Part shown: one piece after another, positions 5,608 to 41,316 of the stretch
How positions within the stretch are numbered: the first letter of the stretch is position 1
How the letters are laid out: each line of letters opens with the position of its first letter
Assembly: GCA_016458225.1 (NCBI GenBank)
Contig: JAEMGR010000005.1
Location: forward strand, 806,001 to 870,000
Direction: 5' to 3'
Source of the DNA: Myxococcaceae bacterium JPH2
GTDB lineage: Bacteria > Myxococcota > Myxococcia > Myxococcales > Myxococcaceae
Length of the DNA: 64,000 nucleotides
Notes under the pieces: model-generated
The model's database searches: none
What the model saw: only the letters and a program-made list of their open reading frames with translations
What the model was told of the DNA's origin: nothing
Made by a program: the position numbers and the translations under genes

Positions 5608-6255
5608 TTACCGCGCCACCATCGGGAGCCGCCGCACCAGCGCGCTCCGCACGGCCTGCGTGACCGCGTCCGCGTCCGCGCTGAGCTCCTCGGGCATCCA
5701 GAAGTAGAGCACCCGCTCCTCCACCTCCACCTGGGACCGCACGCAGCGCAGTCCGTCGATCTCCGCGCGCTCCGGGCTCTCGGGCAGGCACTGCTTGCAC
5801 AGGCAGGGCAGCGGCGCGCCCGTCCCATGCGCGGTGAGGTTGATGGCGGGGCGCGAGCCCTTCGCGGCCTGCAGCAGGCTCGCGGCGTCCTCGGCGGTCA
5901 GCGCGCGCGGCGTCTGGAGCGACATGCCCAGGGCGCCCTTCGCGGCCTGGATTCCCTTGCCGGATGCGAAGCGGATGCTCGGGATGAGCGAGGTGACGTC
6001 GGTGATGGGGATGCGGTTGGCTGATGAGCGCCAGCCATCGTCATCCTGCTCGGGTGAGCGCAGCACGGCCACCAGCCACAGCGCCTCGTCCGGCGGACGC
6101 ACCGTCACGAGGAACAGGTTCCCGCCCGCTTCGAGCGGCTCCAAGGCGCGGCTGTTGCTGCGGTAGACGTCCAGCGGCAGCACGTCGCCGGGGGAGAGGC
6201 CCGCCGCCTGCTTCTCGAAGATGGCCTTGCTGATGATGGCCAGCATGTCAGGCAT
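5608..6255 (-). CDS. Conserved hypothetical protein with CxCxxC motif
   Basis: About 215 residues, not recognised. It begins MPDMLAIISKAIFEKQ. ATG at 6255 or 6246 are both possible and neither has a strong ribosome site. The upstream extension to 6522 in this frame is Arg/Ser-rich shadow sequence. The middle is beta-rich (NLFLVTVRPPDEALWLVAVLR). A CLCKQCLP motif near the centre could bind a metal or form disulfides. The end reads VEERVLYFWMPEELSADADAV. No signal peptide. It converges with the preceding hypothetical gene and its start is only 37 nt from the divergent HEAT-repeat gene. Confidence 0.65.
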   Translation of the reverse strand: MPDMLAIISKAIFEKQAAGLSPGDVLPLDVYRSNSRALEPLEAGGNLFLVTVRPPDEALWLVAVLRSPEQDDDGWRSSANRIPITDVTSLIPSIRFASGKGIQAAKGALGMSLQTPRALTAEDAASLLQAAKGSRPAINLTAHGTGAPLPCLCKQCLPESPERAEIDGLRCVRSQVEVEERVLYFWMPEELSADADAVTQAVRSALVRRLPMVAR

Positions 6256-6292
6256 GTCGCGGACTCTAGCAGGAGGCATAGAGTCCGCGCGG

Positions 6293-6880
6293 ATGCCCGA
6301 CCTGGACCCCGCCCTGGTGCGGCTGCTCGACGAGGATGCGCAGGTGCGCCGCGACGCGGTCGACGCCGTGGACCTCACGTCCTCCCCGGGCCGATATGCC
6401 CTGCGACAGGCCCTGCTGACGGACGAGGACGCCCAGGTGCGCGCGGCGGCGGCGCATCGGCTGGGGGACGCACGCGACGCGCGCTTCATCCCCGCCCTGC
6501 TCGAGTCCCTGCGCGACGCCATGCCCAGCGTGCGTGATCGCTCATGGCGCGCGCTGGCGAGGCTCGGGGCGGAGGCGCTGCTGCCCCCAGCCCGCCGCGC
6601 GGCCCGCGAGGAGTCCGTGTGGTGGGTGCGCCGCGCGGCCGTGCGCGCCGCCGCGTCGCTCGCCCACCCCGAGGCGTTGGAGGTGCTGCTGATCGCCCTG
6701 GAGGACCCCTTCTGGCGCGTGCGTCACGCGGCGGTGCAGGCGTTGGGGTGGCTCGGCGCGGAGGACGCGCGAGTCCGGGAGCGCGTCCAGCAGGCGGCGG
6801 AACAGACGCCCCAGGGCCCGCTGCGCTCGGCGGCCACCTACCTGGAAGGCGTGTGGCGCGAGGCCGCGTCCCGCGCGTAA
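6293..6880 (+). CDS. HEAT-repeat protein
   Basis: About 195 residues made almost entirely of HEAT-like helical repeats. Recurrent units such as DEDAQVRRDAVDAV, DEDAQVRAAAAHRLGD, DPFWRVRHAAVQALGWLG recur every 30-40 residues. These repeats form a superhelical scaffold for protein binding; there is no catalytic motif. ATG at 6293 begins MPDLDPALVRLLDEDAQ. The open frame extends to 6221, but that part overlaps the divergent gene and is not HEAT-like. Partner unknown. Confidence 0.8.
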   Translation: MPDLDPALVRLLDEDAQVRRDAVDAVDLTSSPGRYALRQALLTDEDAQVRAAAAHRLGDARDARFIPALLESLRDAMPSVRDRSWRALARLGAEALLPPARRAAREESVWWVRRAAVRAAASLAHPEALEVLLIALEDPFWRVRHAAVQALGWLGAEDARVRERVQQAAEQTPQGPLRSAATYLEGVWREAASRA

Positions 6881-6974: not shown

Positions 6975-7937
6975 ATGAGCAACCCAGTCAGGAACGACAC
7001 GCCCCCCATCGATGCCACGCGGCGCAAGATCCTCCGAGGCATCGGGCTGGCGCTGGCCGCCGCTCCCCTGGGGCGCCTCCTCGCCGCCTGCGGAGAGGGC
7101 ACCACCCCCACCGAGCCGCTGTCGGACGCGGGCACGCTCCTGGACTCCGGAGTCCCCGCTGAAAACTGGGCCACCGGCGGCACGGCGGTCATGCGCGGCG
7201 GCTATCCAGATCCGTTCGCGTCTGGCATTGGCAGCACGTGCAAGCTGACGTGCGAGGCGACGCTGGGCCCCTGCTACGCGCGGACGCTGGAGCGCCAGGA
7301 CATCAGCGAGGGCCATGACGGCCTCCCGGTGCGTCTGGCCTTCCTCATCGTGGACGAGACGTGCAAGCCCATCCCGAACGCCAGCGTGGACATCTGGCAC
7401 GCCGCGCCCGAGGGTCTCTACTCGGGAGACGACGCGAGCACGTTCTGCACCTCGGCGGACGCGAAGGCCGTGGCCGCGCGCTGGTTCCGAGGCGTGCAGA
7501 CCACGGACGCGAACGGACGCGTGCAGTTCGATACGTGCTTCCCCGGCTGGTACAGCAGCCGCACCATCCACATCCACTTCACGGTGCGACTCAACGGCCA
7601 GGAGTACGTGACGTCGCAGCTCTTCTTCGACGACGCGCTGGACGACGACATCGTCAACACGCAGCCGCTGTACAACGCGCGCGGTCCTCGTGACACGACG
7701 AACGCGCACGACAACGTCGTCTCGGCGGACTCCGTCGTGGACTACCTGTTCCAGACGCAGCGCATGCCGGACGGCGCGATGCTCGCGTGGAAGACGCTCG
7801 TCATCCGCTCCTCGCTCGACGCCGCGCGGTGCCAGGTGCCGGGTGGCAGCGGCGGCGGTCCGGGTGGACCGGGCGGCGATGGCGGCATGGGTCCTCCGCC
7901 GGGCTTCGACGGCGGCATGGGCCCGCCGCCTCCGTGA
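6975..7937 (+). CDS. Intradiol ring-cleavage dioxygenase-like Tat lipoprotein
   Basis: A 320-residue protein of the protocatechuate/catechol 1,2-dioxygenase fold. The N-terminus has a twin-arginine stretch (TRRKILRG), a hydrophobic segment and a lipobox ending LLAAC, so it is probably exported folded and lipid-anchored. The dioxygenase core shows VDIWHAAPEGLYS and, further on, PGWYSSRTIHIHF. The Tyr of GPCY, the Tyr of GWY and the two His of HIHF are the expected Fe(III) ligands, so the metal site looks intact. The C-terminus is a Gly/Pro-rich tail with two copies of DGGMGPPP. GGGAGGAAT lies upstream of ATG 6975. The substrate of exported intradiol-like proteins is not known. Confidence 0.85.
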   Translation: MSNPVRNDTPPIDATRRKILRGIGLALAAAPLGRLLAACGEGTTPTEPLSDAGTLLDSGVPAENWATGGTAVMRGGYPDPFASGIGSTCKLTCEATLGPCYARTLERQDISEGHDGLPVRLAFLIVDETCKPIPNASVDIWHAAPEGLYSGDDASTFCTSADAKAVAARWFRGVQTTDANGRVQFDTCFPGWYSSRTIHIHFTVRLNGQEYVTSQLFFDDALDDDIVNTQPLYNARGPRDTTNAHDNVVSADSVVDYLFQTQRMPDGAMLAWKTLVIRSSLDAARCQVPGGSGGGPGGPGGDGGMGPPPGFDGGMGPPPP

Positions 7938-7938
7938 C

Positions 7939-9888
7939 TCAGGGAGGGCCGAACGTCTCCTCCAGGAACTGGCGCATGAAGGCGGGACGCCGCGCGGCGG
8001 TGTCCCGCATCCGCTCGAGGCTCCCCTCCCACTCCGTCAGCGAGGCGGGATAGCTCCAGCGCTGGATGTGCTCGGCCATCTCCGGCGCCAGCTGTCCCGC
8101 CACCGCGTCGATGGCCGCGACGACGCGCTCGGGCGCGAAGGTGTGGTCCAGGTGCCAGCGGAAGCGCGCGGCGAACCGCGCCCGGAAGTCCGGTGACGCC
8201 ATCAGCTTGCGAGGCAGCACCACGGAAGGCTCCGACAACGACGGTTCCGACAGCAGCCGCGTCAGCGTGTCGTCCTCGGGGCCCGTGAGCAGCGCCGAGT
8301 CCAGGTCGTACACCATCCAGCGCCAGCGCCCGTCCTGCGCCGCGGGCGCGCCCGCCACGAGCTTGCCGCTGTACCGCCACATCCGGACGTTGTTGTCCGG
8401 CCAGTCCGTGTTCGCGAAGTAGATCTCCGCGATGAGGTAGTCGATGAAGTCGTCCACGTCCACGCGGGCCTGGACGTAGGCATACGACGCCGGCACCGCG
8501 AGGTCGTGGGTGCGCACGTATTCGAGCAGGTCCTGGTACGCCTGCGCGTCGCTCTCCGCGCCCACGTCCAGCAGGCCGCCCGCGCCCTCCAAAATGGTGA
8601 CCTTCTTGCGGTCCACCGCGTAGTGCCCGCTCAGGTAGTACTCGTCATAGCGCTCGCGCAGCTCATGCAGGCCCCAGTACTCGCCGTTGATGAACACCAG
8701 CGCGGGGCGGCACGCCTGGAGCGTCAGCGCCGTCTCGCGCAAGAGCCCCTGGAGCACGCAGTCCTTCAGCTTCGTGGCGACCTGGTCCTGCCCCGACGTG
8801 CGCAAGAGCAGCCGCTTGAAGTCCCGCACGTTCAGGCCCGGAAACAGCGCGCCGGAGAACCACTCCGGGCCGTAGTCCTCCTTCGCGTACAGGCGCAGGC
8901 TCTTCTGCGCCAGCACCGCGCTGCCTGACCCGTGGATGCGCACGCCCGCCGGCTGCGCGAGCCCGGGCGCGCCATCCGCCTCGAACCACTCGACGGAGAC
9001 GGGCCGCTCCCAGTCCTTGCCGTCCTGCATGTAGTTGCCCGTGTTCCAGCTCAGCGAGCCGTCCTCGGGAGAGTCCTGGTGCAGGTTCCCCGGCACGTAG
9101 ATGCCCATGGCGTCGCCGAACAGGTTCGCGGCCTCCGTCACCAGCGAGACCACCGGCAGCGTGTACGGCTCGCGGCCCAGCAGGTACGTGCGCGTCCAAC
9201 CCGGGCCCACGGGCGTCGCTCCGTCGAACGCCTGCGCGCGGATGACGTGGGCCAGCGACACCGACCCTTGAGGTGCCTTCCAGCCCCAGTTGTCCGGTGC
9301 CTCCGGCGCCGTGGTCGGGATGGCGGAGAGGGGCGCGGTGCCCTGGCGCCCCAGCAGCACGAGCGGCCCCGAGTACAGCGGCGACGCCGGCGTTGGCACC
9401 GAGCCATCCACCGTGTAGCGCGTCGTCGTGGTGGCCGAGGTGGGCAGCGTCAGCAGCGTCTCGGGCTGGTACAGGCTCGCCGCGTCCAGGAGGTCCAACG
9501 GACGCAGCTCCACGTGGGCACGGCCCACCTCACCCGAGACGTGCGAGGCCACCACCTCCACCTCGCGGGCGCTCACGTCGGGCCACCACGGCAGGCTCCA
9601 CTGCCCACCCTCCACGTCCGCCCGCCCCAGGCGCACGCTGTCCACGAAGACCTCCACCGTCAGCGCGCCCACGTCGCCGCGCACGGCGCCCCACAAGACG
9701 TGCCGCGCGTTGTCCATCCCCTCCAAGGTCACCGCGGGCAGCTCCTGCTCGACCCGGCCCTCGTCCGCCGACTCCACCATCGGAGGCGAGCCGTGGCAGG
9801 CGGACAGCCACAGCCCCAGACACGCCAGCAAGGCTGGCGAACGCACCGCACGCAACGGGAGCCCAGGAGGAGAGAACGAGGAGCGCAT
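7939..9888 (-). CDS. CotH-kinase-family lipoprotein with FN3-associated domain
   Basis: A 649-residue secreted protein with a lipobox (GLWLSAC, about residues 26-32). Residues 150-190 hold a chitobiase C-terminal/FN3-associated module (TTRYTVDGSVPTPASPLYSG). The C-terminal two thirds is a CotH kinase domain: FKRLLLRTSGQDQ, FINGEYWGLHELRERYD, a metal-site region FANTDWPDNNVRMWR and RWMVYDLDSAL. CotH kinases phosphorylate spore-coat proteins in Bacillus, and myxobacteria carry many copies of unknown target. The stop lies 1 nt beyond that of the convergent dioxygenase gene. Start at 9888 gives a standard signal peptide. Confidence 0.85.
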   Translation of the reverse strand: MRSSFSPPGLPLRAVRSPALLACLGLWLSACHGSPPMVESADEGRVEQELPAVTLEGMDNARHVLWGAVRGDVGALTVEVFVDSVRLGRADVEGGQWSLPWWPDVSAREVEVVASHVSGEVGRAHVELRPLDLLDAASLYQPETLLTLPTSATTTTRYTVDGSVPTPASPLYSGPLVLLGRQGTAPLSAIPTTAPEAPDNWGWKAPQGSVSLAHVIRAQAFDGATPVGPGWTRTYLLGREPYTLPVVSLVTEAANLFGDAMGIYVPGNLHQDSPEDGSLSWNTGNYMQDGKDWERPVSVEWFEADGAPGLAQPAGVRIHGSGSAVLAQKSLRLYAKEDYGPEWFSGALFPGLNVRDFKRLLLRTSGQDQVATKLKDCVLQGLLRETALTLQACRPALVFINGEYWGLHELRERYDEYYLSGHYAVDRKKVTILEGAGGLLDVGAESDAQAYQDLLEYVRTHDLAVPASYAYVQARVDVDDFIDYLIAEIYFANTDWPDNNVRMWRYSGKLVAGAPAAQDGRWRWMVYDLDSALLTGPEDDTLTRLLSEPSLSEPSVVLPRKLMASPDFRARFAARFRWHLDHTFAPERVVAAIDAVAGQLAPEMAEHIQRWSYPASLTEWEGSLERMRDTAARRPAFMRQFLEETFGPP

Positions 9889-10021: not shown

Positions 10022-12286
10022 ATGTCCACCCGAGAACCCACCCCGCCCGACCTCCTCGCGCCTGACCTCGGGAACGAGGATCCAGCGGTGGTGACGGCGA
10101 GGCTGGAGGCCACGCCCGCCTCCGAGGTGAGCGCGCGGGAGCTGGTGGAGTGGCTGGGAGACCCCCACGAACCACTCCGCGAACTGGCGCGCCGTCGCCT
10201 GCGGGAGCGGAAGGACCTGGACGCGCTCCGGCTCGCGCTGCGCTGGCTGGATGAGCCTCGGGTGCCCCACGCCGCGCAGGCCGCCTATTCCCTGATGGAG
10301 CGCGCGCCCGTGGAGGACGTGGTGCTCGCCACGCGAGTGCTGGACGAGCCCCCACGCCCCGGAGCGGTGGCGTGGGCCACGCGCGTGGCGGCGCGTCGGG
10401 CCCATCCCGAGCTGCTGGCCCGGAGCCGAGCCCTCGCGCGACACCCGGAGCCCTCCATCCGTCGCGCCGCGCTGTCGGGCCTCGCCGCGGATCCCTCCAG
10501 CCGGGAGGTGCTGCTCGCCGCGCTCGAGGACCCCGAAGCGGCCGTGCGCGAGGAGGTCCTGGCCGCCTGGGAGCGAAGGCCCCCCGCGCGCGCCGCCGCC
10601 GAAGCGTTCGCCCAGGCGCTGGTGAGCTTCGCGCCGAAGGCCCGCTCCACGCGAGAGCGCCGCGCGGTGGCCACCGCCGCGGTCCTGCTGAACGATGAGG
10701 CCCTGCTCAATCAGGCCTCACGAGACGAGGACCCCTCCGTGCGCGCCGTGGCGCTGGCGGCGAGAGCCCGACACGGGAACCTCTCCGCCGAGGAGCGCGC
10801 CCAGGCCGAACGCGACGAGGATCCCTGGATCCGCCTGGCGGTGTTGGACCTCGCCAGCGCTCGGCGGGCCTGCGTGGAAGACCTCGACCCGAGCGTCCGG
10901 CGCGCCGCGCTCGACCTCTGGGTCGCCTGGAATCGCGAGCCCTCCGACGACGACTCACCCGAGTCGCAAGACGTGGCGCTCGCCTGCGCGCAATCACCGG
11001 ACCCGTGGGTGCGTGCCCGCGCGTGCGACCTGCTCGACCCCGCCCGAGCGCCGGAGGAGCTGCACGTGCTGCTGCGGCTGACGCACGACACCTCGCCCAT
11101 GGCGCGCGCCGCCGCGGCCTCCGTGCTGGAGTCGTGCGACACGCTCGACGCGCGCCTCGACACGGTGGAGGCCGCTGACCTCCAGCCCGCCGTCTGGACC
11201 TGGCGCCTGCGCCACGCCGATGACGCCGCCCTTCAACGCCTGAGCGCCGCACTGGACAGCGCCGCCTCGACGGACGCCCTCACCGCGCACCTCGAAGCCC
11301 TCACGCTCGTCTTCCCCGACGACGCCCTCGCCGCCGCGCCGTCCGTCGCGCGCCACCGCCCCACGCCCGCGCCCAAGCGCCCGCGAGCCCCCGCGACGCC
11401 TCGCCCCCGGCCCGAAGCCCACTCCTCGTCGCGCCCCCTCGGCACCACCGGCCTGCGCGTCTCGCCGCTCGTGCTCTCGGGCGCGAACCTCACCACGCCC
11501 GAGCCCTTCTTCGAGGCCCGGGACGCGGGCGTGAACGCCTTCTTCTGGGAGCCCCGCTACACCGCCCTCACGCGGTTCCTCCGCGCCCAGCGCGACCGGA
11601 GGAACGAGTTGGTGGTGGTCGCCGGCACGTACCACGCGGGAGAGGCCGCCCTCCGCCGCGATGTGGAGTCCGCGCTGCGGCGGCTGCGCACGACGTCCCT
11701 GGATGTCTTCCTGCTGTTCTGGGTTCGTTCGCCGGAGCGCCTCTCCGACGAAGACTTCGCGGCGCTGGAGCGGCTGCGCGCCGAGGGGAAGGTCCGCGCG
11801 TTCGGCTTCTCCACGCACCTGCGCGACCTGGCGCGCGAGGCCCTCCACCGCGCGCCCTGGCCCGTCGTGATGACCCGGCACAGCGCCGCGCACCCCGGCG
11901 CGGAGGCCGCGTTCCTGCCCGAGGCCCAGGCCCGAGGCACCGGCGTGCTCACCTTCAGCACCACCTGCTACGGCCGCCTGCTGCGCCCCACGCCCGAAGT
12001 CACACCCGACGCGGTGCTGCCCTCGGCGGTGGACTGCTACCGCTACTCCCTCTCGCAGCCCGGCGTGAGCGCCAGCCTCACCGCGCCGCGAAGCTGGAGC
12101 GAGCTGCGGCACAACCTGGAGGTGCTCGCCCGCCCGAGGATGGAACCCGACGCCCTGCCTGCCATGCGGGCCCATGGGGAGCGCGTGAGAGCCCGCGAGC
12201 GAGAGCTGGACGCACGGGTGCGCCGAGCGCCAGGCGGCCCGCGCGATGCCCTGCTCGCCCTGCTGGAAGAGGGCGAAGGGGTGTGA
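10022..12286 (+). CDS. HEAT-repeat protein fused to a catalytically degenerate aldo/keto reductase fold
   Basis: A 754-residue two-part protein. Residues 1 to about 440 are HEAT-like repeats (for example DPEAAVREEVLAAWERR, DEDPSVRAVALAARARHG, DEDPWIRLAVLDLASA). A Pro/Arg linker (about 440-468) leads to an aldo/keto reductase-like domain starting RPLGTTGLRVSPLVLSG at about 470 and ending with QPGVSASLTAPRSWSELRHNLEVL. The usual AKR tetrad is Asp, Tyr, Lys, His. Only the Tyr is in place (NAFFWEPRYT); the Asp position reads F, the Lys region reads VVVAGTYHAG and the His position reads F (VFLLFWV). It is therefore probably not a reductase. It ends 14 nt before the retron inverted repeat, on the same strand as the RT. 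Confidence 0.8.
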   Translation: MSTREPTPPDLLAPDLGNEDPAVVTARLEATPASEVSARELVEWLGDPHEPLRELARRRLRERKDLDALRLALRWLDEPRVPHAAQAAYSLMERAPVEDVVLATRVLDEPPRPGAVAWATRVAARRAHPELLARSRALARHPEPSIRRAALSGLAADPSSREVLLAALEDPEAAVREEVLAAWERRPPARAAAEAFAQALVSFAPKARSTRERRAVATAAVLLNDEALLNQASRDEDPSVRAVALAARARHGNLSAEERAQAERDEDPWIRLAVLDLASARRACVEDLDPSVRRAALDLWVAWNREPSDDDSPESQDVALACAQSPDPWVRARACDLLDPARAPEELHVLLRLTHDTSPMARAAAASVLESCDTLDARLDTVEAADLQPAVWTWRLRHADDAALQRLSAALDSAASTDALTAHLEALTLVFPDDALAAAPSVARHRPTPAPKRPRAPATPRPRPEAHSSSRPLGTTGLRVSPLVLSGANLTTPEPFFEARDAGVNAFFWEPRYTALTRFLRAQRDRRNELVVVAGTYHAGEAALRRDVESALRRLRTTSLDVFLLFWVRSPERLSDEDFAALERLRAEGKVRAFGFSTHLRDLAREALHRAPWPVVMTRHSAAHPGAEAAFLPEAQARGTGVLTFSTTCYGRLLRPTPEVTPDAVLPSAVDCYRYSLSQPGVSASLTAPRSWSELRHNLEVLARPRMEPDALPAMRAHGERVRARERELDARVRRAPGGPRDALLALLEEGEGV

Positions 12287-12299
12287 TGGAATCCGGGGC

Positions 12300-12454
12300 G
12301 CTCCTGGGGCCGCGTGCAGCCAGCCTTCCGTCCGCGATGTCACGTCGCGGCTGCCGTTGATTCCCATTGAAGAATGACGCGGTACGAGGTCCGCCTTGCG
12401 GGCTTCCTCGACCTCGTCCGCCTCTGCCGTGCAGGTGGCGGCGGTCCCAGGAGC
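12300..12454 (+). ncRNA. Retron msr-msd RNA (predicted)
   Basis: Directly upstream of the reverse transcriptase. A 14-nt inverted repeat, GCTCCTGGGGCCGC (12300-12313) and GCGGTCCCAGGAGC (12441-12454), pairs fully in RNA with a single G-U, as expected for the a1/a2 arms. Just inside a1 is an AGC (12318-12320) that could hold the branching G. The msr part has a stem CCGCGA/TCGCGG (12332-12350). The msd part has a long hairpin, GCGG-T-ACGAGGTC (12379-12391) with GACCTCGTCCGC (12410-12421), 12 pairs with one bulge. About 127 nt between the arms predicts an msDNA of roughly 60-80 nt, nearer in size to Mx65 than Mx162 of M. xanthus. Exact ends and branch site are inferred. Confidence 0.75.
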
Positions 12455-12483: not shown

Positions 12484-13902
12484 ATGAACCTGGTTGGCCT
12501 CCTCCTGGAGCTCAAGCCACTGATGAAGGACCCCGAGGCCAGCTTCGACGCCATCGTCGAGCTGCTCGAGCGAAACCAGGGTCTCGCCGAGTACGAGGTG
12601 GCCCGCTTCTTCGTCGCGCGCGCCTGGAAGGACCCGGTCGAAGGCCGCGTGCGAAGCCCGGACGCGCGTGAGCGCCTGCGGGCCGCGCGCCTGATTCCCC
12701 TCTTGTTCGATCGCACCAGCGCCGCGCGGCTCGTGCGCCGGATGGTGAAGGATGCGGACGCGCGGGTGTCGGCGTCGGCGAGAGCCGCGGTGCGCAAGCT
12801 GGGGCTCGCGGACGTGTCGCTCCCGGACTCGCGCGAGGAGCCGCCGAGCCACCCGAGACCCACCGCCATCGGAGGCTGGAACCCCACGGGCTGGAGCTTC
12901 GGGCTCTACCCCGAGATGACCCAGGCCGCGCGCAAGCGTCCTCCTCCCGTCACCGAGGCACTGCCCTCGCTGCGCACGCGCGAGGACGTGGCGAAGCTCC
13001 TGGGCCTGGGGACGGGCGACCTCGACGCGCTGATGCGCCCGGGAACCCAGTCGGGCTCGGGCTACGTGGAGTTCGAGGTCCCCAAGCGCTCCGGTGGTGT
13101 GCGTCGCCTGAGCGCGCCGCGCCCCAAGCTGAAGGCCGCGCAGCGCACGCTCTTGGAACAGGTGCTCGCGCGAATGCCGGCCCACCCCGCCGCGCACGGC
13201 TTCGTGTCGGGCCGCTCCACCGTCACGAACGCCGAGCCGCACGTCGGCGCCACGGTGGTGGTGCGCGTGGACCTGGAGGACTTCTTCCCCTCGGTGCACT
13301 TCCGCCGCGTGAAGGGCCTCTTCGAAGCGCATGGCTACGGCGAGGAGGTCGCGACCACGCTGGCGGGCCTCACCACCTACCGCGCGAAGCTGCCGGACGG
13401 CACGGTCGCGTGGCCCGGCGTGCTGCCACAGGGCGCGCCCACGTCTCCGACCATCGCCAACCTCGTGTGCCGCCGCATGGACGCGCGCCTCACCGCGCTG
13501 GCCGCGAAGGTCGGCGCCGCGTACACGCGCTACGCGGATGACTTGTCCTTCTCCTTCCGCCAGCCGCCCGAGCGCCTGGGCCGCTTCTTCTGGTGGGTGA
13601 ACGCCATCCTCCAGCAGGAGGGCTTCGCGGAGAACGGACCCAAGCGCCGGGTGATGCGCCAGGGCGGACGCCAGCGCGTGACGGGCCTCACCGTCAACGA
13701 GCGCGTGTCCATCCCGCGCGATGAGCGCCGCCGCTTCAAGGCCATCCTGGCCAACTGCCGCAAGCACGGCGTGGACTCGCAGGCCCGAGGGCGGCCGGAC
13801 TTCAAGCGCTGGCTGGAGGGCTACGCGGCCTATGTCCGCATGGTGCACCCCGAGCTGGGCGAGGCCTGGCAGCGCGAGGTGAAGGAGCTGCTCGCCACAT
13901 GA
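12484..13902 (+). CDS. Retron reverse transcriptase
   Basis: A 472-residue retron-type RT that primes from the branching G of its RNA and copies the msd part into msDNA. Core motifs from N to C: VPKRSGGVRRLSAP, AAHGFVSGRSTVTNA, VRVDLEDFFPS (first catalytic Asp, about 264), LPQGAPTSPTIANLV, and the active site YADD (350-353). An extra N-terminal region of about 110 residues is helical and HEAT-like (LVRRMVKDADARVSASARAAVRKLG). ATG at 12484 is chosen because GGAG lies 9 nt upstream and the protein then begins after the predicted msr-msd RNA; the frame stays open through that RNA to 12367. The stop overlaps the next gene as ATGA. Confidence 0.93.
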   Translation: MNLVGLLLELKPLMKDPEASFDAIVELLERNQGLAEYEVARFFVARAWKDPVEGRVRSPDARERLRAARLIPLLFDRTSAARLVRRMVKDADARVSASARAAVRKLGLADVSLPDSREEPPSHPRPTAIGGWNPTGWSFGLYPEMTQAARKRPPPVTEALPSLRTREDVAKLLGLGTGDLDALMRPGTQSGSGYVEFEVPKRSGGVRRLSAPRPKLKAAQRTLLEQVLARMPAHPAAHGFVSGRSTVTNAEPHVGATVVVRVDLEDFFPSVHFRRVKGLFEAHGYGEEVATTLAGLTTYRAKLPDGTVAWPGVLPQGAPTSPTIANLVCRRMDARLTALAAKVGAAYTRYADDLSFSFRQPPERLGRFFWWVNAILQQEGFAENGPKRRVMRQGGRQRVTGLTVNERVSIPRDERRRFKAILANCRKHGVDSQARGRPDFKRWLEGYAAYVRMVHPELGEAWQREVKELLAT

Positions 13903-14876
13903 GTGACGACGCGAAGTGGATCGCGCGGGTGGCCGCCGAGCCCGCGAACAACGCACTCCGGCTGGCCCACGCGCAGACGCTGCGCGAGACGGACGCGCCC
14001 CGCGCGGAGTTCATCCAGGCGCAGGTGGCGCTCACCGGCAAGCTGGACCCCGCGAGCCGCCGCACGCTGAACCGAAGGGCCGAGGCGCTCCTGGCCCACC
14101 ACCACCGCGCCTGGAGCGAGCCCCTGCGCAAGCACGGCATCCAGCGCTGTGACTTCACGCGCGGCTACGTCGAGTCGCTCTCACTCTCGGAAGACCTGCT
14201 GGCGAGGCACGGCGAAGCGCTGTTCACGCACGAGCCCGTGCGACAGGTGACGCTGGAGACGCGCGATGGGAAGTCGCTCGCCGAAGCCGCGGCGCAGCCC
14301 TGGTTCGAGCAAGTCTCCTGGCTGCGCCTCCAAGGCCCAGGCGCGGAGGCCGCCGCCGAGGCATTGGCGGCCGCGCCCCACGTCGGGAAGCTGGAAGTGC
14401 TCTCCTTCCGCGCGCCATCCGAAGGAGGCGTCGCGGCCGTGGTGAAGAGCACCACGCTGACGGGCCTGCGCGTCCTCAGCCTGTCGCTGGAAGAGGCGGA
14501 CCCCGAAGTGCTGGCCCAGGCGTTCGCGGGGAATCGGCTCGCCCTGAAGCGACTCTTCCTCTCCGGCGCGCGCATCGGCGACGAGGGCGCGGAAGGGCTC
14601 TCGAAGTGCAAGACCCTGGGCACGCTGGAGCAGCTCGCGTTGAACCGGAACGAGCTGAGTGACGAGGGCGCGGCGGCGCTGGCGCGGAGCAAGGGGCTGA
14701 ACGCCCTGGAGCGCCTGGAGCTGTCTGGCAATGACCTGAGCGAGGAAGGCGCGCTGGCCTTCAAGTCACCCAAGGCGCTGCCCAACTTGAAACGTCTGGA
14801 GTTGAAGGAGATGGGCCTGAGCGACAGCGATGTGGAGCCGCTGCTGCGCCGGCTGGGTAAAGGCCTCAGGCTCTGA
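13899..14876 (+). CDS. TIGR02996-domain leucine-rich-repeat protein, coupled to the retron RT
   Basis: A 325-residue protein. Residues 1-50 match the TIGR02996 repeat-companion domain seen in myxobacteria and planctomycetes (NNALRLAHAQTLRETDAPRA, then EFIQAQVALTG). The second half is leucine-rich repeats of the ribonuclease-inhibitor style (GLRVLSLSLEEADPE, TLEQLALNRNELSDEGAAAL, ALERLELSGNDLSEEGALAF). No catalytic motif or signal peptide is visible. Its ATG overlaps the RT stop (ATGA, 13899-13902), so translation is probably coupled and the protein may be a retron accessory or effector partner. LRR proteins of this type are also common away from retrons, so the functional link is an inference. 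Confidence 0.85.
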   Translation: MSDDAKWIARVAAEPANNALRLAHAQTLRETDAPRAEFIQAQVALTGKLDPASRRTLNRRAEALLAHHHRAWSEPLRKHGIQRCDFTRGYVESLSLSEDLLARHGEALFTHEPVRQVTLETRDGKSLAEAAAQPWFEQVSWLRLQGPGAEAAAEALAAAPHVGKLEVLSFRAPSEGGVAAVVKSTTLTGLRVLSLSLEEADPEVLAQAFAGNRLALKRLFLSGARIGDEGAEGLSKCKTLGTLEQLALNRNELSDEGAAALARSKGLNALERLELSGNDLSEEGALAFKSPKALPNLKRLELKEMGLSDSDVEPLLRRLGKGLRL

Positions 14877-39237: not shown

Positions 39238-41316
39238 CTACTTCGCCGAGGGCGCGGCCACCTGCTGGGACGCGCGCAGCTCCTGCACCACGCGCGTGGC
39301 GCCGTACACGTGCTCCAGCGCGGCGAGGATGCCGTCACCATGCACGCCCACCGCGCGGTTCGTCTCGGGCACGTAGGCGAAGCGCCCGCCCAGCGACTGC
39401 AGGTTGCCGTCGAAGATGAGGCCCACCACCTGCCCGTCGCGGTTCACCATGGGCGAGCCTGAGTTGCCGCCGATGATGTCGTTCGTCGTCGCCATGTCGA
39501 ACGGCGTGCCCGCGGGCACCTTGCCCTGCGCCTTCATCCACGAGTCCGGCAGCTTGAAGGGGTCCTTGCCCGTGTGACGCGCGTAGGCGCCACCGAACGT
39601 GGTGAGCGCGTCCACCGAGTGGCCGTCCTCCTCCCAGCCCTTCACCACGCCCTGGTTGAGGCGCAGCGTGAAGGTGGCGTCCGGGTAGCCCGCGGTGCCG
39701 TACACCGCCAGGTTCGCGCGCGCGAGGCGCTCACCGTTGCGCTTGAGCACCGACTCCACGGTGTCCTCGTAGCGCTTGCGCGTGGCGCGAGCCTCCGCGT
39801 CCACCTTGCGCGCGAGCTGAATCATCGGATCCTTCGAGGCCTCCACCGCCGCCTTGCCGCCCTCCAGCAGCGCCTGACGGGCCTTCACGTCGCCGAGCTT
39901 CGTGCCCGTCACCAGCGCGCGCGCCAGGTCCGCGGGAGCCTCCTTGCCCAGCACGCGCTGCACGAACGGATCATCCGCGCCCAGCGTCTCGCGCAGCTTG
40001 TTGAAGCTGAAGGTGAGCTGCACCACCTCCAGGTCCGTGGCCACCGGAGCGGCGCGCAGCAACTGCTGACGCAGCGCGGGGAGCTGTCCCTCGGTGTACT
40101 CGCGCAGGCGCTCGGCGTTGGGCTTGGGCAGCTCGTCCGCGGCGCGCACCAGCGTCTCCGCGTAGCCGAACAGCTCAGACAAGAAGCCGTCCCCGGCCTC
40201 CTTCATGCGGTAGCCGGGCAGCATGCGACGGTACGCATCGAGCGCCTGCGTGTTCTCCTCCCACGCGCCCGCCGTGTCTGCCTTCACCTGCGCCTGCGCA
40301 TCGATCCGCTTGCGCAGGTCCGCCTCGTCCTGGCGCTTGCGCGCGAGCAGCGAGGGGTCCGCCAGCGCCTGGTGCCGACCGCGCAGCGCCTTCAGGCCGT
40401 TCTCCACCGCGCGCAGCCGCGAGCGGGTGACGCGGTAGCGCTCCGCCGAGCCGCCCGCGAACTCGCGCAGCGTGCCGCGCAGCTCAGCCAGGTACAGCAG
40501 CGTGTACGGCAGGGCCACGTCGCGCTGGAACTCCAGCTCCGCGACCGTGCTCTTGCGCTCGGTTCCACCAGGATGGCCCGAGACGAACACCAGGTCGCCC
40601 GGCTTCGCGCCCTCCTTCGCCCACGGCAGGTAGTCCGGGCTCTTCGCCGGAGCATCGCCCTGCCACACGCGCAGGAAGGACACGTCGTAGCCATAGCGCG
40701 GGAAGTTGAAGTTGTCCGGGTCGCCGCCGAACGCCGCCATGGAGAACTCGGGGGCGAACACCAGCCGCACGTCCTGGAAGCGGCGGTACTTGTAGAGCTG
40801 ATACTTGCCGCCGTTGAAGAGCGTCACCACGTCACAGCGCACGTCCGCGCTGGTGGCGCACGCGGCCTCCACCGTGGACATCTCCTTCTTCAGCGCCGTG
40901 TTGAACGCCGCGCCGGAGAGTCCCTTCGTCGCCGCGTTCATCTTCGCGGTGACGTCCGTCATCTCCACGAGCTGGTTGGCTTCAATCTTCGGGCAGCGGC
41001 GCTCCTCCTGCGGCGACTTCGCGTAGAAGCCCGTGGCGAGCAGGTCTTCCTTCGGCGAGGACAGGTCCTCGATGCAGCCGCGAGCGCAGTGGTGGTTCGT
41101 CATCACCAGGCCATCCGGCGACACGAAGCTGGCCGAGCAGCCGCCCGCCAGTCGCACGGAGCCGAGCCGAACCTTGTCCAGCCACGCCTGCGTGGGCGCG
41201 AAGCCATACGCCTTCTTCACGGCCTCCGAGGGAAACGCGTCATAGGTCCACATGCCCTCCTCCGCCGAGGCGGGCAGGGAGAGGAGCAGGCCGAGGGCAA
41301 GCAATCTGCGGTGCAC
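39238..41316 (-). CDS. S46-family dipeptidyl peptidase (DPP7/DPP11-like)
   Basis: A 692-residue secreted serine peptidase that removes dipeptides from the N-terminus of oligopeptides. Signal peptide at residues 1-18 (ends PASAEE). The catalytic triad is readable: His in MTNHHCARG, Asp in AAFGGDPDNFNFPRYG, and Ser in IIGGNSGSPMVN. The insert helical domain (about residues 280-560) is typical. GDLVFVSGHPGGTER is another S46 signature. Whether the pocket prefers acidic or hydrophobic residues (DPP11 or DPP7) depends on a residue I cannot align by eye. Lone gene with its own regulation. Confidence 0.92.
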   Translation of the reverse strand: MHRRLLALGLLLSLPASAEEGMWTYDAFPSEAVKKAYGFAPTQAWLDKVRLGSVRLAGGCSASFVSPDGLVMTNHHCARGCIEDLSSPKEDLLATGFYAKSPQEERRCPKIEANQLVEMTDVTAKMNAATKGLSGAAFNTALKKEMSTVEAACATSADVRCDVVTLFNGGKYQLYKYRRFQDVRLVFAPEFSMAAFGGDPDNFNFPRYGYDVSFLRVWQGDAPAKSPDYLPWAKEGAKPGDLVFVSGHPGGTERKSTVAELEFQRDVALPYTLLYLAELRGTLREFAGGSAERYRVTRSRLRAVENGLKALRGRHQALADPSLLARKRQDEADLRKRIDAQAQVKADTAGAWEENTQALDAYRRMLPGYRMKEAGDGFLSELFGYAETLVRAADELPKPNAERLREYTEGQLPALRQQLLRAAPVATDLEVVQLTFSFNKLRETLGADDPFVQRVLGKEAPADLARALVTGTKLGDVKARQALLEGGKAAVEASKDPMIQLARKVDAEARATRKRYEDTVESVLKRNGERLARANLAVYGTAGYPDATFTLRLNQGVVKGWEEDGHSVDALTTFGGAYARHTGKDPFKLPDSWMKAQGKVPAGTPFDMATTNDIIGGNSGSPMVNRDGQVVGLIFDGNLQSLGGRFAYVPETNRAVGVHGDGILAALEHVYGATRVVQELRASQQVAAPSAK

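Follow-up and report, generated by a model that had tools for sequence, protein, structure and literature searches.

The window analysed here, 64,000 nucleotides of the genome of Myxococcaceae bacterium JPH2 (G000:C5:806001-870000), carries on its plus strand a gene for a retron reverse transcriptase (RT) of 472 aa (12484..13902, starting at ATG 12484), which is preceded by a small structured RNA (12300..12454) and followed by an overlapping gene for an LRR protein. Retrons are bacterial elements whose RT copies part of their own small RNA into DNA, and they were first discovered in myxobacteria. The RT matches the PADLOC family RT_XIII best (E-value 1.1e-115; 385 bits, versus 334 for RT_other) and Pfam RVT_1 (5.7e-19), it contains the motifs NAEPH (residues 249-253, the NAxxH motif), YADD (350-353) and VTG (399-401), and its best matches in the PDB are the RTs of the retrons Ec67 and Ec86. 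Compared with a close relative, Citreicoccus inhibens (L032; RT identity 92%), the RT domain shows a dN/dS of 0.12, indicating purifying selection. The ORF listing offers an earlier start at TTG 12367, but in all orthologues the protein begins at the residue that corresponds to ATG 12484, with M(N/D)L or, in the most distant of those aligned, MAL; the RNA and the RT gene therefore do not overlap.

The RT N-terminus and the neighbouring genes

In an AF2 model of residues 1-150, the N-terminus of the RT (residues 1-108; 12484..12807, plus strand) is predicted to form a HEAT/ARM-like alpha-solenoid of six helices, with pLDDT of about 81-93 over residues 1-110; the model of the whole RT, built from a six-sequence alignment, was poor (pLDDT 61), and only the N-terminal model was used. 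The top matches in structural comparison were all HEAT/ARM-type solenoids (best Z 10.4 over 120 residues), which, among proteins built of helical repeats, would speak for a fold class and not for kinship. Foldseek returned no significant match for this model, Pfam had no above-threshold match in residues 1-150, and the HEAT_2 sequence match to the N-terminus was weak (E 0.037). A profile of the N-terminal region finds the orthologous RTs and, beyond these, three weak matches at threshold, which probably reflect general HEAT similarity. A specific kinship of the solenoid with HEAT-ARM_XIII is not claimed, the single match (E 6.5e-4) standing among general HEAT similarities. An extra N-terminal domain in the RT had already been remarked on when the locus was read from sequence alone, and this domain is real; however, an extended N-terminus is usual in myxobacterial retron RTs, as in Mx162, Mx65, Sa163 and Ne144 (PMC6868368), and it is the HEAT/ARM-type solenoid that is unusual.

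The gene downstream of the RT (13899..14876, plus strand) encodes a 325-aa LRR and TIGR02996 protein, and it overlaps the RT stop codon in an ATGA, the arrangement of translational coupling; its product is a candidate partner or effector. Of the 21 related loci, 15 have it next to the RT, among them the distant L052 and L053, and it was not found beside the RT in the other six (L034, L035, L041, L048, L049 and L051, some of them from Archangium). Because the RT and the RNA are intact in these six loci, the LRR gene may be a mere operon neighbour.

Upstream lie a gene for a HEAT-repeat and aldo/keto-reductase protein (10022..12286, plus strand), a conserved neighbour in most relatives that is displaced or lost in Archangium, and a gene for a small HEAT-repeat protein (6221..6880, plus strand), which adjoins the former in relatives; both HEAT-repeat genes are found upstream in most relatives, and in Archangium they do not adjoin the RT. 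Most relatives have the two side by side or almost so, and in the window they are separated by an insertion shared with C. inhibens (6975-9888), which holds a dioxygenase-like gene and a minus-strand CotH-like gene, both recognized by eye. No known effector model of PADLOC or NCBIfam matched any neighbour tested, and scans of the locus for sigma-70 promoters and terminators were uninformative.

Anatomy, covariation and distribution of the RNA

The RNA, all of whose elements lie on the plus strand, is closed into a unit of 155 nt by the arms a1 (12300..12313; GCTCCTGGGGCCGC) and a2 (12441..12454; GCGGTCCCAGGAGC), which form 14 pairs, with G-U once (12309-12445), and enclose 127 nt, as established by a base-by-base check of the sequence. 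Between the arms, and after the priming segment described below, stand the msr stem-loop CCGCGA-UGUCACG-UCGCGG (12332..12350), a conserved unpaired box CATTGAAGAATG (12365..12376; 84% conserved over 12365-12378, beside a more variable stretch), the msd hairpin (12379..12421), which comprises four pairs, the bulged T12383 and eight further pairs, capped by a short apical stem at 12392-12400, a small hairpin CTGC-CGT-GCAG (12424..12434) where the predicted cDNA would start, and the GTGGC of the msd 3′ end (12435..12439). The sequence-only reading had described the 14-nt inverted repeat with its single G-U and 127-nt interior, the short stem and the 12-pair hairpin, and re-reading placed each of them at exactly the same coordinates; the a1/msr/msd/a2 retron layout that it had recognized before a YADD RT is borne out by a covarying RNA restricted to genomes with the RT. 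The segment 12297-12457 folds 4.0 s.d. below its dinucleotide shuffles. The 64-kb window holds just two inverted repeats that combine 14 or more pairs, no more than one G-U and a loop of 60-200 nt; the other (40101-40252; 14 bp, 124-nt loop) apparently lies within protein-coding sequence and looks like chance.

The priming segment GCCAGCC (12319..12325) contains G12323, the predicted branching guanosine, bulged between paired neighbours. RNAalifold, unprompted, paired the GCCA and CC around G12323 with the GGTGGC of the msd 3′ end and left the G bulged, and when tested separately, the helix 12319-12324/12435-12439 was 96% paired, with compensatory change in three of its five pairs, including C-G to U-A swaps where CAGC becomes TAGC (L035 and L052). 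As far as aligned sequences can tell, this covariation shows a second short helix holding G12323 as a bulge. The priming context is CAGC here and TAGC in the distant relatives L035, L052 and L053, and TAGC, CAGC and GAGC are all known priming contexts of retrons (PMC6868368). In the RNA of the Mx162 lineage from the same genome, the G of GCATCAGCC is likewise unpaired between paired neighbours in the MFE prediction, and in that of the M. xanthus Mx162 RNA (485-aa RT) a bulged G is absent. The first template base is predicted to be G12435 and, following the retron pathway, the msDNA would be about 60-70 nt long; the 60-80 nt that the sequence-only reading had expected would likewise suit the anatomy. 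The cDNA 3′ end and the overlap of RNA and DNA likely fall in the unpaired box at 12365..12376.

Among 96 genomes of Myxococcaceae, 31 carry RT orthologues sharing the N-terminus, and in 30 of these the RT is preceded by a 157-nt RNA; the sole exception, G056, has an RT truncated at a contig end. A genome-wide search with the RNA model gave no match in the other 65 genomes, which are without this RT, and the co-occurrence has a hypergeometric p of about 5e-24, a nominal value in which the shared descent of the genomes is uncorrected. Conservation reaches 93% in a1, 99% in the msr stem, 87% in the msd hairpin, 97% in the 3′ segment and 86% in a2, and is 37% and 32% in the unconserved 5′ and 3′ flanks, respectively. 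A search of Rfam with the RNA found no retron family at the gathering or a permissive threshold.

Covariation was assessed in two alignments: A1, made from 24 distinct sequences by MAFFT alone and unbiased by structure, and A4, a model-fitted alignment of 26 sequences, which leans towards the proposed structure. In A1, 95.5% of cells are paired and both-sided changes occur in 15 of the 39 pairs (46 such cells), most of them in the msd hairpin, where 9 of the 12 pairs show compensatory changes; 500 shuffles, which give 5.9 compensatory pairs, never reached the observed values, and when the partner is shifted by 1-3 columns, pairing falls to 38-48%. In A4, 21 of the 39 pairs covary, 10 of them among the 14 of a1/a2. 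The msr stem is paired in 100% of cells with two compensatory pairs, and the small hairpin, whose evidence is weak, in 96% of cells with no compensatory change. Pairing in homologous loci, which the sequence-only reading had named as the check on its proposal, is therefore both conserved and covarying in 24-26 distinct homologous RNAs, and nothing in them refutes the retron layout.

Additional copies of the RNA occur in some relatives. In G092 (L052), two complete tandem RNAs (7948-8106 and 8147-8305, minus strand) lie upstream of the RT, with msd hairpins that differ and are both intact, and in L035 a remnant of an extra copy (about 9-32) precedes the main RNA. G042 carries an extra copy on another contig (L092 8241-8397, that is, G042:C1:1238240-1238396), flanked by integrase-like and transposase-like ORFs and with slightly decayed a1/a2; an RT match was not found on that contig, and the copy could be either a remnant or a trans-acting RNA.

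Comparison with type XIII, Mx65 and Mx162

The same genome harbours a second retron, of the Mx162 lineage (G000:C3:739483-749650, L056), which has the complete type XIII set, namely HEAT-ARM_XIII (739483-745962), SWIM_XIII (746004-747539) and then the second RT. The only full-length match to HEAT-ARM_XIII in the genome is the one on C3, the HEAT gene of the window at 6221-6880 matching one repeat stretch, and the only match to SWIM_XIII is likewise on C3, with none beside the window RT. This second retron, the coupled LRR gene and the bulged priming G had gone unmentioned in the sequence-only reading. The type XIII of PADLOC and the window retron have in common the RT family, RT_XIII being the best match, and an alpha-solenoid theme; however, type XIII comprises a separate solenoid protein of ~2000 aa and SWIM, whereas the window retron has a solenoid of ~110 aa fused to the RT, an LRR gene and no SWIM.

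RT_XIII is also the best-scoring family for Mx65 (427-aa RT; 435 bits) and for L059, which we take to be Mx162 from its RT length (485 aa) and its sequence, and the Mx162-lineage RT of the same genome scores 516 bits, compared with the 385 bits of the window RT. The Mx65 locus (Mxa2 of Myxococcus xanthus) was identified by matching its coordinates in PMC8934634. Its RT is 45% identical to the window RT over residues 141-467, and it shares with the window retron a short RNA, an extended RT N-terminus and, in its msr stem CCGCGG-UGUUUCG-CCGCGG, a loop similar to the UGUCACG of the window RNA, but it belongs to a separate RT clade, has another N-terminal sequence and primes in a GAGC context (PMC6868368), versus CAGC or TAGC in the window lineage. 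The window RNA model scores Mx65-lineage RNAs at noise level (E 0.12-0.84), although in the right place. Mx162 (Mxa1) and the Mx162-lineage retron on C3 resemble the window retron in the CAGC priming G, the N-terminal extension and RT_XIII, and the latter also in the bulged G. However, the Mx162 msDNA, at 162 nt, is much longer than that predicted here (PMC6868368), and the C3 retron is preceded by HEAT-ARM_XIII and SWIM_XIII, which the window retron is without.

Phylogenetic analysis of 35 myxobacterial RTs placed the window RT in a clade of 19 (support 99/97) and joined the lineages of Mx65 and Mx162 in another part of the tree (91/95); judged by these sequences, the window RT is outside both lineages. 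A third RT in M. xanthus (L058 of G076; 444-445 aa), whose best PADLOC families are RT_other/RT_outgroup, lies far from those of Mx65 and Mx162; the sampled genome of laboratory M. xanthus has no member of the window lineage. Because two of the three features defining type XIII in PADLOC, HEAT-ARM_XIII and SWIM_XIII, are absent at the window locus, the retron is not filed as type XIII; it is a relative with a different partner set.

Proposed mechanism and rival explanations

An RT with the NAxxH, YxDD and VTG motifs, and an adjoining structured RNA with a1/a2, a (T/C/G)AGC priming G and msr followed by msd, which are the general marks of a retron, can all be read at this locus, and it is almost certainly a genuine chromosomal retron. 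We propose that the RT would bind the RNA closed by a1/a2 and use the 2′-OH of G12323 as primer. Copying would begin at about G12435, proceed through both the small and the msd hairpin and end close to the TGAAGAA box, so that msDNA would be produced from the locus. If tripartite retrons are a guide, the complex of RT and msDNA would probably restrain or position a partner protein, which phage disturbance would release. Candidates for this partner are the HEAT/ARM solenoid fused to the RT, putatively a docking surface, and the LRR protein encoded by the coupled gene, and we hypothesize that one or the other serves as effector or partner. Taken as a whole, a retron with these RNA, priming, msDNA and partner steps is a highly probable explanation of the locus. 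Much more tentatively, it could represent a retron type of its own: the type XIII solenoid partner would have become part of the RT, as a short N-terminal HEAT/ARM domain, the LRR protein would be the effector or sensor, and tandem, diverged RNAs would provide some relatives with two different msDNAs per RT. Nothing on this lineage or on the type XIII mechanism was found in the literature searched, which included neither the founding retron classification (10.1093/nar/gkaa1149) nor the census of retrons.

The inverted repeats might instead have nothing to do with retrons and serve the upstream gene as terminator or attenuator, as the RNA begins just 14 nt past its stop codon; but no T-tract terminator was found there, the unpaired boxes are conserved too, the RNA co-occurs strictly with the retron RT, and the extra copy (G042:C1) and the tandem copy (L052) are away from the upstream gene, all of which leaves this explanation scarcely credible. 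It is also rather unlikely that the locus is an ordinary type XIII retron of the Mx162 kind that has lost HEAT-ARM_XIII and SWIM_XIII, or uses in trans those of the second retron: RT_XIII is indeed the best score of the window RT, and one complete HEAT-ARM_XIII/SWIM_XIII/RT_XIII locus is present in the same genome, but the RT belongs to a clade of its own, apart from Mx65 and Mx162, and has a different N-terminus, whose solenoid runs throughout the clade and meets elsewhere in the class with only weak HEAT-like matches. Among the neighbours of the relatives, the PADLOC scan covered a part.

A further explanation accepts the retron RNA as genuine and regards the element as domesticated for housekeeping, without a toxic effector and with the LRR gene as an operon passenger. 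The chromosomal neighbourhood, mostly similar across genera, and the loss of the LRR gene where RT and RNA survive would both agree with it, whereas the coupling of the LRR gene has been kept in the very distant L052 and L053, and the N-terminus and the LRR gene evolve faster (dN/dS 0.43 and 0.40) than the RT domain (0.12), as is expected of interaction surfaces and equally of relaxed constraint; we consider domestication possible but somewhat doubtful.

No function of myxobacterial retrons was found in the literature searched. The retron reported here may defend against phage as a compact system whose partner proteins form a new set. The lineage is compact and well conserved and is without the large partner proteins of its neighbours, and it is therefore tractable for asking what role the N-terminal extension plays in myxobacterial retron RTs and whether an LRR protein can be a retron effector, while its short, defined msDNA could serve DNA-writing tools.
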